Source of the DNA: Streptomyces coelicoflavus
GTDB taxonomy: Bacteria; Actinomycetota; Actinomycetes; Streptomycetales; Streptomycetaceae
Direction of reading: 5' to 3'
Assembly: GCF_003112555.1 (NCBI RefSeq)
Contig: NZ_BEWB01000018.1
Coordinates: forward strand, 62,001 to 126,000
DNA: 64,000 bases
Made by a program: the position numbers and the translations under genes. Below, one piece after another: positions 60,824 to 64,000 of this stretch. The number at the start of each line of letters is the position of its first letter. Positions within the stretch are counted from its first letter, which is position 1. Under the pieces are notes generated by a model that was given only the letters and a program-made list of their open reading frames with translations, was not told the DNA's origin and made no database searches.

Positions 60824-61288
60824 GTGGCCGACAACGCGCGGGCGAAAAGGCTGGCGGACCTCATCCGAGAGGTGGTGGCCCAGAAGCTGCAGCGCGGGAT
60901 CAAGGACCCGCGGCTCGGCTCGCACGTCACCATCACGGACACGCGGGTCACCGGTGACCTGCGGGAGGCGACCGTCTTCTACACGGTCTACGGGGACGAG
61001 GAGGAGCGCAAGGCCGCCTCCGCCGGCCTGGAGAGCGCCAAGGGCATCCTGCGCTCCGAGGTCGGCAAGGCCGCGGGCGTGAAGTTCACGCCGACCCTGA
61101 CCTTCGTCATGGACGCCCTGCCGGACACCGCCCGCAACATCGAGGACCTCCTCGACCGGGCGCGGCAGTCCGACGAGAAGGTGCGCGAGGCGTCCGCGGG
61201 CGCCGCGTACGCGGGCGAGGCGGACCCGTACCGCAAGCCGGGCGAGGACGACACCGAGGCCGACGAGACGGACGACACCGCTAAATGA
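60824..61288 (+). CDS. rbfA: Ribosome-binding factor A
   Basis: A 154-residue KH-like protein that helps 16S rRNA 5'-end maturation in cold or growth transitions. It begins KRLADLIREVVAQKLQRGIKDPRLG and contains VTITDTRVTGDLREATVFYTVYG and VKFTPTLTFVMDALP. The last 35 residues are an acidic low-complexity tail. GTG 60824 follows CGGGAGACGGACC. Its stop overlaps the truB start. Confidence 0.95.
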   Translation: MADNARAKRLADLIREVVAQKLQRGIKDPRLGSHVTITDTRVTGDLREATVFYTVYGDEEERKAASAGLESAKGILRSEVGKAAGVKFTPTLTFVMDALPDTARNIEDLLDRARQSDEKVREASAGAAYAGEADPYRKPGEDDTEADETDDTAK

Positions 61289-62190
61289 GCGAGAAGCACA
61301 CCACGCCCGACGGCCTTGTCATCGTCGACAAGCCGTCGGGCTTCACTTCGCACGACGTCGTCGCCAAGATGCGGGGCATCGCCCGCACCCGGCGCGTCGG
61401 GCACGCCGGCACGCTCGACCCGATGGCGACGGGCGTCCTGGTCCTCGGGGTGGAGCGGGCGACCAAGCTCCTCGGGCACCTCGCCCTCACCGAGAAGGAG
61501 TACCTGGGCACCATCAGGCTCGGGCAGACGACGCTCACCGACGACGCCGAGGGCGAGATCACGGGGTCGCGAGACGCCTCGAAGGTCACCCGGGAGGCGA
61601 TCGACGCCGGCGTCGCCGAGCTGAGCGGCGCCATCATGCAGGTGCCGTCCAAGGTCAGCGCCATCAAGATCAAGGGCGTGCGCTCCTACAAGCGGGCGCG
61701 CGAGGGCGAGGAGTTCGAGATCCCCGCCCGCCCCGTCACCGTCTCCTCCTTCGCGGTGTACGACGTCCGGGACGCCGTCGCCGACGACGGCACCCCGGTG
61801 CTCGACCTGGTGGTCTCGGTGACCTGCTCCTCCGGCACCTACATCCGGGCCCTCGCCCGCGACCTGGGCGCCGGTCTCGGCGTCGGCGGGCACCTCACGG
61901 CGCTGCGCCGCACCCGCGTCGGCCCGTACAAGCTGGACAGCGCCCGGACGCTGGACCAGCTCCAGCAGGACCTCACCGTCATGCCCGTCGCGGACGCGGC
62001 CGGTGCGGCCTTCCCCCGCTGGGACGTCGACACCAAGCGGGCCCGGCTGCTCACCAACGGCGTACGGCTGGAGATGCCCGAGCAGTACGCGGGCGCCGGT
62101 GCCGTCGCCGTCTTCGATCCCGACGGGCGCCTCCTCGCGCTCGTGGAGGAGCACAAGGGCAAGGCGAAGAGCCTGGCCGTCTTCGGCTGA
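61285..62190 (+). CDS. truB: tRNA pseudouridine-55 synthase
   Basis: A 301-residue pseudouridine synthase that modifies U55 in the T-arm of tRNA. The catalytic Asp is in RVGHAGTLDPMATGVLVL, with VDKPSGFTSHDVV at the start and SCSSGTYIRALARDLG in the second half. A PUA-like C-terminal domain is shorter than in the long forms. The ATGA overlap with rbfA fixes the start. A 13-bp terminator follows, closing the operon. Confidence 0.95.
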   Translation: MSEKHTTPDGLVIVDKPSGFTSHDVVAKMRGIARTRRVGHAGTLDPMATGVLVLGVERATKLLGHLALTEKEYLGTIRLGQTTLTDDAEGEITGSRDASKVTREAIDAGVAELSGAIMQVPSKVSAIKIKGVRSYKRAREGEEFEIPARPVTVSSFAVYDVRDAVADDGTPVLDLVVSVTCSSGTYIRALARDLGAGLGVGGHLTALRRTRVGPYKLDSARTLDQLQQDLTVMPVADAAGAAFPRWDVDTKRARLLTNGVRLEMPEQYAGAGAVAVFDPDGRLLALVEEHKGKAKSLAVFG

Positions 62191-62445: not shown

Positions 62446-64000
62446 ATGGCGTCGCGGAACCGGTCCCGGGAGGCGACGGGCGGCACGGCGGGGGAGCGGC
62501 CCGGGGACGGCTCCCGGGAGGCGCGAGGCGGCTTGCCGGCCGTCCGGGAGGCCGACGCAACGGGACAGCCGCCCGATGCCGCCCTGATCCGCGTCCACGA
62601 CCTCGCCGGCCGCCCCCGGGGCACCGGATTCGTCGCCGACCACCACGGCACGGTGCTCACCAGCCACGAAGCCGTCGACGGCCTGTCCCGGCTGGTCCTG
62701 AGCACCGCCGGGGACCGCCGCCGCGTGGTGGCCGCCGCCGACGTGACCCCGCTGCCCGCCCTCGGCCTGGCCCTCGTCCGCACCGAGGGCCTCGGCGTCG
62801 ACCCGCTGCCCCTGACCGCGCGGGACCGCGTCGAGGCCGGGACCTACGTCCGCATCGCCGCGGGCGGCTGGCGCGAGGCCCGGGTCCTGGGCTCCACCGA
62901 CGTCACCTACACGGCCACCGACCGCTTCCACCTCCTCGGCGACGCCCTGGAGCTGGCCGTCGGCACGTCCGGGCGGGACGCCCTGCGCCTCGGCGGCGGC
63001 GCGGCCGGCGGACCCGTCCTCGACGTGACGACCGGCGCCGTGCTCGGCGTCGTCGGCACCGCCCTCAGCTCCGGCCACAGCGACGTCGGCTTCGCCGTAC
63101 CGCTGCGCCGCGCGGCCACCGGCCCGCTCGCCGCCCTCCTCGCCGAGAACGCGGCGACGGTCCCGGCGTACGGCGCCGACCTCAACCTGGCCGGGGTGCT
63201 CGCCCTCACGGCGACATCGGTCACGGAGGGGAACCCCGCCGCCGGCCCGGTCGGCGGAGCGGACGCGGCGCAACCGGTGCGACGCGCGGCGACGGCCGCC
63301 GCGTTCGCCGCCTTCGCCGCGAGCCCCGCCCGCGTCCTCGGCCTGGTCGGCGCGCCGGGCAGCGGCCGTACGACCGAGCTGGCGGCCCTCGCCGCCCGCC
63401 GTTCCCGGGGCCGGGAAGCGGCGCCCACGCTGTGGCTGCGAGGGGCCGATCTGCACGACGACGACATGTCGCTGGCCGACGCGGCCCGCCGGACGCTGGC
63501 CAGGGCGGCCCGCATCGTGGCCGCCTCGGCCCCCTCCCGCCCCGCCGGCCTCGGCGACATCACCCCGGAACGTCTCGCCCACCTGGCCCGCACCGCCGGA
63601 CGGCCCCTCCTAGTCCTCCTCGACGGCCCCGAGGAGATGCCGCCCGTCCTGGCCCACCGCCTCCCCGAGTGGACCGAGGGCACGGCCGGCTGGCTGCGGG
63701 AGACGGGAGCACGGCTCGTGGTGGCCTGCCGCGCCGAGTACTGGGAGCACGCGGGGGCGGAGTTCCCCAGGGAGCTGCTGTACGGGCCGGACACCGGGCG
63801 AGCGGGATTCGTCGCGGCCGGTGCCGGTGCCGGTGCCGGTGCCGGTGCCGACCGACGAGTGGCGGGGGCGGCGGGGGAGGGGTGGCTGTCCGGGTCGGCC
63901 GGGGGCGCGCGGGGGCTTCCGGAGCTCCGGGGGCCCCGGAAGCCGGCGTCCGACGCGGACCGCGCCGTGCCGCCGCGCGGCGCGGCCGACAGGGCACCGT
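62446..64000 (+). CDS. Trypsin-like pseudoprotease fused to a P-loop NTPase (3' end outside window)
   Basis: The reading frame is open for 518 codons to the window end. After a 40-residue tail, a trypsin-like domain (about 45-215) keeps the catalytic His74 in VLTSHEAV. The Asp position in the usual DLAL block is Gly107 (LGLALV), and the serine motif GDSGGP reads GAAGGP with Ala187, so proteolysis is unlikely. A P-loop domain follows with Walker A GAPGSGRTT (302-310), Arg308 replacing the Lys, and Walker B LLVLLDGPEEM (388-398). An Ala-Gly repeat comes near residue 462. The order protease-like domain then STAND/AAA-type NTPase resembles large signalling NTPases that end in WD40 or TPR repeats. 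ATG 62446 follows GGGGAGG. Confidence 0.75.
   Translation, partial: MASRNRSREATGGTAGERPGDGSREARGGLPAVREADATGQPPDAALIRVHDLAGRPRGTGFVADHHGTVLTSHEAVDGLSRLVLSTAGDRRRVVAAADVTPLPALGLALVRTEGLGVDPLPLTARDRVEAGTYVRIAAGGWREARVLGSTDVTYTATDRFHLLGDALELAVGTSGRDALRLGGGAAGGPVLDVTTGAVLGVVGTALSSGHSDVGFAVPLRRAATGPLAALLAENAATVPAYGADLNLAGVLALTATSVTEGNPAAGPVGGADAAQPVRRAATAAAFAAFAASPARVLGLVGAPGSGRTTELAALAARRSRGREAAPTLWLRGADLHDDDMSLADAARRTLARAARIVAASAPSRPAGLGDITPERLAHLARTAGRPLLVLLDGPEEMPPVLAHRLPEWTEGTAGWLRETGARLVVACRAEYWEHAGAEFPRELLYGPDTGRAGFVAAGAGAGAGAGADRRVAGAAGEGWLSGSAGGARGLPELRGPRKPASDADRAVPPRGAADRAP

Follow-up and report, generated by a model that had tools for sequence, protein, structure and literature searches.

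The closest described counterparts of the protein reported here combine a trypsin-like domain with an NTPase of the STAND or a related type. Avs1b (AVAST type 1) carries an N-terminal trypsin-like domain fused to a STAND-family defence protein; as described in PMC12799240, its protease is active and a nuclease gene adjoins it. In LypA, from the CARD-NLR-like system of Caulobacter, an ATPase domain whose Walker motifs are non-canonical comes after a trypsin-like domain; according to PMC13236601, this ATPase domain is devoid of the Walker residues and may still bind ATP, while LypA as a whole depends on its catalytic Ser, contains a CARD and acts with LypB and LypC. The MoxR-vWA ternary systems contain an inactive STAND domain (iSTAND), and the trypsin domains that serve them as effectors are described as nearly all inactive (PMC7159879). 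For the NACHT domains of NLRs, PMC7583971 lists the motifs Walker A GxxxxGK(S/T), Walker B with extra acidic residues, a Sensor 1 Arg, an HD1 Pro and a winged-helix FxHxxxQEhxA; the same source relates that CED-4 was found with ATP bound and not hydrolysed, and that there may be pseudoenzymes among the NLRs.

The gene studied here begins near the end of the window, a stretch of 64,000 nucleotides of Streptomyces coelicoflavus DNA (G000:C18:62001-126000 of the parent contig; Table 1). Its frame starts with an ATG at 62446 and is still open at 64000; on the parent contig it closes after 1391 aa (L009 2447-6622). The original prediction, which advised extending the sequence past the window end, had covered the first 518 of these residues. 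Profile searches and structure models together give the full domain order: a trypsin domain of the HtrA type comes first, a NACHT-like NTPase and a winged helix follow, and a long alpha-solenoid makes up the C-terminal part. Upstream, NCBIfam names infB, rbfA and truB, the last in the position first proposed for it; downstream it names ribF, and past ribF an ABC transporter ATPase on the other strand. Promoter and terminator scans gave 0 sites. The S. coelicolor orthologue is presumably SCO5710; a literature search with this number matched nothing, and among the matches listed for related topics none concerns this gene.

Table 1. Positions in the window of the gene, its domains and key residues, and its neighbours (L009 coordinates where stated); residue counts are over distinct loci.
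Feature	Position	Strand	Basis
Trypsin-NACHT-like-solenoid protein gene	62446..64000, on past the window to the equivalent of 66621	+	1391 aa
HtrA/trypsin-like domain, aa 46-225, triad H74/G107/A187, predicted inactive	62581..63120	+	Pfam Trypsin_2; phmmer to HhoA; Foldseek to Deg1, Rv3671c, DegS
His74, kept	62665..62667	+	codon cac; H 189, L 3, R 1, G 1 of 194
Gly107 at the Asp position	62764..62766	+	codon ggc; G 114, D 65, N 13, A 2 of 194
Ala187 at the Ser position	63004..63006	+	codon gcc; A 148, S 24, other 21 (T 9, V 4, I 3, C 2, P 2, R 1) of 193
NACHT-like NTPase core, aa 285-440	63298..63765	+	sub-threshold Pfam NACHT/nSTAND in relatives; NLR fold match
Walker A GAPGSGRT, Arg for Lys	63349..63372	+	Arg308 codon cgt, 63367-63369; R308 in 197/197
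Walker B acidic run DGPEE, aa 393-397	63622..63636	+	D393 195/195, E396 195/195, E397 193/195
Low-complexity Ala/Pro/Gly insert, aa 445 to about 705, tandemly repeated, variable	63778..64000 (start; most past the window)	+	
truB, upstream neighbour at the conserved locus	61285..62190	+	TIGR00431 TruB, 215 bits
ribF, next gene after the trypsin-NACHT-like gene	L009 6665-7744		NCBIfam

The window protein thus shares its general architecture with Avs1b and LypA, and with the iSTAND systems a probably inactive STAND domain, but it differs from each of them. Unlike Avs1b, it has an apparently dead triad, and its gene is flanked by truB and ribF; unlike LypA, it possesses neither Ser nor Asp and has kept its Walker B motif; unlike the iSTAND proteins, it has truB and ribF as direct neighbours, a retained Walker B and a fixed chromosomal locus.

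The N-terminal domain matches Pfam Trypsin_2 (E 6.2e-10, 40.4 bits against a cut-off of 27.6) and the P-loop lies within the NACHT-like domain, so that the trypsin-STAND fusion originally proposed is borne out; the same profile is matched by 39 of the 40 members of A3 (E 0.1). Matches to HtrA models of NCBIfam were weak, all far below their cut-offs, and the lowest E (1.4e-4) belonged to a phosphonate-lyase ATPase model on the P-loop. With phmmer, the loop GGAAGGPVLD pairs with the nucleophile loop of HhoA and Ala187 falls opposite its Ser. This ungapped alignment is one residue off at position 107, and the Asp site was assigned from the family alignment, in which Gly107 occupies the position where 65 of the 194 relatives carry Asp within D-L-A-L-V. 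The four residues on which the original prediction was built, a retained His74, Gly107 for Asp, Ala187 for Ser and Arg308 for the Walker A Lys, can all be read from the codons. In fold the domain resembles the HtrA, DegS and Deg1 proteases (Foldseek, weak model), but it differs from them in having no Ser or Asp, no PDZ domain in the Pfam scan and, judged by eye, no evident signal peptide. The loss of both residues supports the view that the protease of the window protein is inactive.

Residues were scored at 198 distinct loci, each from another genome or record, after identical sequences and the unrelated L002-L008 had been dropped; the counts include frame-shortened relatives. Ser is absent from position 187 in 169 of 193 loci and Arg308 is constant, a family-wide conservation that rules out chance, annotation error or a sequencing slip behind the residue changes. 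The triad as a whole, however, is a mosaic. All three of His, Asp and Ser occur at five of the 198 loci (L149 of S. griseoruber, L232, L235, L243 and L295), the motif windows of which align cleanly, and the combination H/G/S is found at 19; therefore some relatives may cut, and the protease may be active in these five. The positions that were to be scored in homologues behaved differently: 308 is fixed, whereas Asp survives at 107 in a third or so of the loci and Ser at 187 in 24 of 193. Homologues with an intact Ser or Asp, which the original prediction had regarded, at shifted positions, as evidence against itself, do exist among a few relatives, at the same positions and none shifted, and the window protein stays without both residues. 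One subclade has lost the whole trypsin-like domain and persists, so that in this group the domain is dispensable. Given the mosaic, a fixed family-wide loss of all triad residues is ruled out; the triad appears to have been eroded unevenly, protease loss being lineage-specific.

At truB-ribF loci of one genus (L271, L272, L273 and L274) the gene encodes an NTPase-solenoid protein of 936–993 aa without the trypsin-like domain.

As for the NTPase, Pfam NACHT does not match the window protein, and other P-loop families do so only below threshold; the best relative for this profile (L271; E 4.3e-5) reaches 23.9 bits against a cut-off of 26.7, and nSTAND matches are weak too. At E 0.1, ten A3 members match nSTAND_NTPase5 and three match NACHT. 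When the motifs of PMC7583971 are considered, all of them appear recognisable in the window protein except the Walker A Lys. The canonical GxxxxGK[S/T] is not matched, Lys being replaced by Arg in every scored locus: 197 of the 197 distinct loci that have a residue there carry Arg308. A pattern that itself contained GRTT had been used to retrieve 77 of the 198 loci, and the set retrieved without it has Arg in 120 of 120. The Walker B pattern (hhhhD, a small residue and more acidic residues) is matched by LLDGPEE. Sensor 1 corresponds to R429 in a Cys-Arg pair and is less constant than Arg308, relatives having R in 169, G in 18, L in 6 and S in 1 of 194 loci; with the Arg missing in 25 of 194, the nucleotide pocket is incomplete in some relatives. 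The Pro of an HPL motif, which we read as the HD1 Pro, is invariant in 40 rows. The winged helix has FAHEELADW (FxHxxx-Ala-Asp-Trp), with His in 38 of 39 rows but Ala-Asp where the published motif has Gln-Glu; the divergent relative L264 has Tyr for this His.

Because Arg308 is invariant, Walker B is kept and the Sensor 1 Arg, the HD1 Pro and the winged-helix His are largely kept, the Walker A Arg is best read as a fixed feature of the family and not as decay. The original claim that both catalytic centres have been lost thus stands for the protease, which is without Ser and Asp, and does not stand in the same form for the NTPase, where the Arg is an invariant family feature in a mostly kept pocket. 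Arginine in particular has been used to replace the Walker A Lys in laboratory mutants. Changing this Lys is the usual laboratory means to kill a STAND protein, and Walker A mutants of NLRs are treated in PMC7583971. A switch that only binds nucleotide would be plausible by analogy with CED-4 and LypA, cases that are no proof for this protein.

Structure models place the NTPase close to the NLRs. The AlphaFold2 model of the relative L143 (1138 aa, the first of the 40 A3 rows) has a mean pLDDT of 77.8 and consists of a strand-rich N-terminus, the NTPase, a winged helix near residues 544–598 and helical repeats at 625–1132. Residues 95–122 and 126–219 have pLDDT below 50, so that the second half of the trypsin domain is poorly modelled, and the Ser loop too is modelled at low confidence; no helical bundle of the kind a CARD would form is modelled ahead of the trypsin domain, where the residues are likewise of low confidence. 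Foldseek ranks NLRP9 first for this model (E 1.4e-7), although the TM-score over the whole length is low (0.20–0.25); the next matches are mostly helical-repeat proteins, e.g. CAND1 and importins. With VIA-align, residues 216–733 of L143 superimpose over about 400 residues on NLRP3 (Z 18.2, rmsd 4.7, 399 aligned), NLRC4 (Z 18.1, rmsd 5.4, 404 aligned) and NOD2 (Z 17.5, rmsd 4.4, 383 aligned). Lower rows include Apaf-1 (Z 15.0), 8bob (14.4; a maltose-system chain, presumably MalT) and Avs4 (12.9, rmsd 13.5), and AAA+ proteasome subunits lie near Z 11, below the NLR rows. The model of the window part alone (aa 1–461) is weak (mean pLDDT 59.9); its Foldseek matches are Deg1 (E 1.7e-10), Rv3671c (4.1e-10) and DegS (7.2e-10). 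Apart from the Walker A Arg and the sub-threshold Pfam score, the protein differs from the NACHT NLRs in its trypsin-like N-terminus and in its HEAT/ARM-like solenoid (Foldseek), which stands in place of LRRs.

Taken with the residues, this architecture leads us to picture the window protein as an NLR-architecture STAND protein, fixed in Streptomycetaceae, that would bind nucleotide, be impaired in hydrolysis and serve as a non-proteolytic scaffold, a reading to which we give about even chances of being right. The N-terminal HtrA-type domain would not cut and would have been retained for binding a peptide or partner; the NACHT-like switch would bind nucleotide, with Arg in place of the Walker A Lys allowing poor or no hydrolysis; and the C-terminal alpha-solenoid would hold a ligand or partner. 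Partner binding or nucleotide occupancy would then change the assembly state without proteolysis. Sensor or scaffold, as first suggested, is thus the best reading of the window protein. Points against it are the relatives that may cut, the subclade that persists without the domain, the pocket incomplete in some relatives and the low confidence at which the Ser loop and the second half of the trypsin domain are modelled. With Arg fixed in every scored member and most of the pocket kept, the family provides a test made by nature of whether a switch of the NLR type depends on hydrolysis. Its members, ranging from H/D/S through H/G/S and H/G/A to no protease domain at all, also offer a ready means of studying when a STAND effector turns into a pseudoenzyme, and why.

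The Arg P-loop is not singular to the window protein, a notion ruled out by four other proteins of its own genome. Codon patterns retrieved 62 GxPGxGRT and 28 GxPGxGKT sites from this genome, and control patterns 23 and 3 sites. Judged by eye from frame length, third-position GC and context, the GxPGxGRT sites lying in long GC3-rich frames with a P-loop-like context are those of this gene and of L332, L337, L385 and L405, and of the 28 GxPGxGKT sites, all but L362 of which were judged, 26 look like true P-loops and L365 does not. Arg P-loops are therefore a minority form in this genome, unusual rather than singular. In other proteins, Arg P-loops may still be functional, which counts against the hydrolysis-impaired reading. 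The four further cases in this genome lend something to the idea that the protein is still an active enzyme, as do the five complete triads and the 19 H/G/S loci; on this view ATP would be hydrolysed at the Arg P-loop, and the protease would either rely on a different nucleophile or work in the Ser-bearing relatives. We regard this as improbable: the window protein has neither Ser nor Asp, relatives have Thr, Val, Ile, Cys, Pro and Arg as well at position 187, and we know of no serine-protease centre that consists of a lone His.

We then consider the distribution of the gene. With the first 460 residues as query, 30 of 61 relatives matched, all within the 37 genomes of the same genus (own included). 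Alignment A2 matched 261 of 297 sampled Streptomycetaceae genomes, spread over 10 of 17 genera; at least four of the matches (G032, G079, G103 and G297) are weak, generic and not to the orthologue. Across the class 36 of 296 genomes matched, the ten outside the family weakly (best E 4.2e-7), and an NTPase-solenoid query matched 11 of 148, with one weak match outside the genus. No relative was found at E 1e-3 among 72,556 plasmid and 50,697 phage records.

The locus is constant. An upstream truB is present in all 30 first-set loci, in 79 of the 80 named ones and, among the orthologues from other genera, in 17 of 18. The order truB, gene, ribF is complete in 29 of the 30 first-set loci (L068 ends inside the gene), in 74 of the 80 named loci (of the other six, five break off within the gene and one, L116, starts at a contig end) and in 17 of the 18 orthologues of other genera, a count from which L275 and L276 were excluded as non-orthologous. 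Five of the 37 same-genus genomes (G008, G010, G028, G031 and G036) do not have the gene, their truB and ribF matches lying 118–558 bases apart, and in two others (G017 and G032) the contig breaks at the locus. In the outgroup genomes G037, G038, G040, G044 and G053 the gene is absent too, with 209–1791 bases between truB and ribF. These patterns lead us to infer that the truB-ribF pair is older than the gene, which seems to have been inserted there in the lineage of Streptomycetaceae and to have been lost again in places. In L262 (G096) ribF lies downstream and no truB match is seen upstream within the sequence examined, possibly a local rearrangement.

A tree of 93 rows, obtained by a short search with SH-aLRT support only and drawn with a midpoint root, recovers g27, g16, g20, g26 and g29 each as one group; g1 needs two changes, other genera (g20 and others) being nested within it. 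The protease-less rows L246, L247, L248 and L250 form one clade. With the window-gene row not counted, Ser at 187 requires at least five changes and Asp at 107 at least 12; the former may reflect either repeated loss or a one-base return from Ala. The constant synteny and the grouping in the tree fit vertical descent and rule out a recent acquisition; the trypsin-NACHT-like gene is thus a vertically inherited gene of Streptomycetaceae, and the suggestion that it is a conserved gene of the truB locus was correct.

Selection was estimated from eight close pairs, all of which share the window gene as partner and are not independent. dN/dS is 0.10–0.29 for the protease domain, which, where measured, is under purifying selection comparable to that on truB (0.17–0.35). 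The values are 0.21–0.48 for the NTPase, 0.19–0.31 for the C-terminal part, 0.38–1.43 for the N-terminal leader (aa 1–45) and 0.37–0.73, on an unsure alignment, for the insert. The commonest residue has a mean share over 40 rows of 0.84 (protease domain), 0.83 (NTPase) and 0.81 (solenoid). Low dN/dS together with high residue share indicates that the folded parts are maintained, the leader and the insert being loose; the latter varies in length among relatives. A decaying gene kept by drift would account for this looseness, for the absences in which truB runs straight on to ribF, for the shortened frames of some relatives and for the eroding triad, but it is very unlikely in view of the low dN/dS of the folded domains, the long frames of most fully read relatives and the invariance of Arg308, D393 and E396.

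Inside the insert, between the NTPase core and the C-terminal part, tandem repeats with periods of 6, 30 and 36 bases were located at L009 3818-4403. Short frames (536–937 aa) occur in the orthologues L049, L060, L110, L121, L125, L260, L262, L270 and L277, and could stem from true interruptions, from sequencing errors where the repeats are very GC-rich or, in L277, from a stretch of unread bases.

The same evidence bears on whether the protein is a chromosomal anti-phage NLR of the Avs, bNACHT or CARD-NLR type, the solenoid of which would sense a phage protein, with the inactive protease domain either recruiting an active protease or blocking one. In architecture the protein resembles Avs1b and LypA, where trypsin is joined to an NTPase of the STAND or a related type, and inactive trypsin domains are described as the usual occupants of the effector position in MoxR-vWA conflict systems (PMC7159879). 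Against this stand the single fixed locus between housekeeping genes at the loci examined, its vertical descent, the truB gene instead of a nuclease gene directly upstream, and the lack of plasmid and phage relatives; PADLOC matched 0 families on the window protein, and dN/dS of the C-terminal part gives no sign of an arms race in the eight pairs. We therefore consider an anti-phage NLR unlikely; such a role is possible but not indicated. More tentatively than the non-proteolytic scaffold itself, but with somewhat better prospects than a defence function, we suggest that an NLR-type immune architecture was domesticated at truB-ribF as a vertically inherited core regulator, a double pseudoenzyme with an Arg-P-loop NACHT that may hold nucleotide and not turn it over and a pseudoprotease that may read a peptide. 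Were this true, bacterial NLR function would exist without catalysis. The family also shows that in multicellular bacteria an NLR-like gene can be part of the chromosomal core.

The two non-orthologues excluded above are of other kinds. L276 resembles L332 and is a STAND-TPR protein by Pfam. L275 (2551-5553), from a related genus, encodes another kind of trypsin-STAND protein: its P-loop is of the Lys type (GGAGKT), its GLSGSPVLD loop contains Ser and its repeats are TPR-like. It is possibly an intact relative of the trypsin-STAND architecture.
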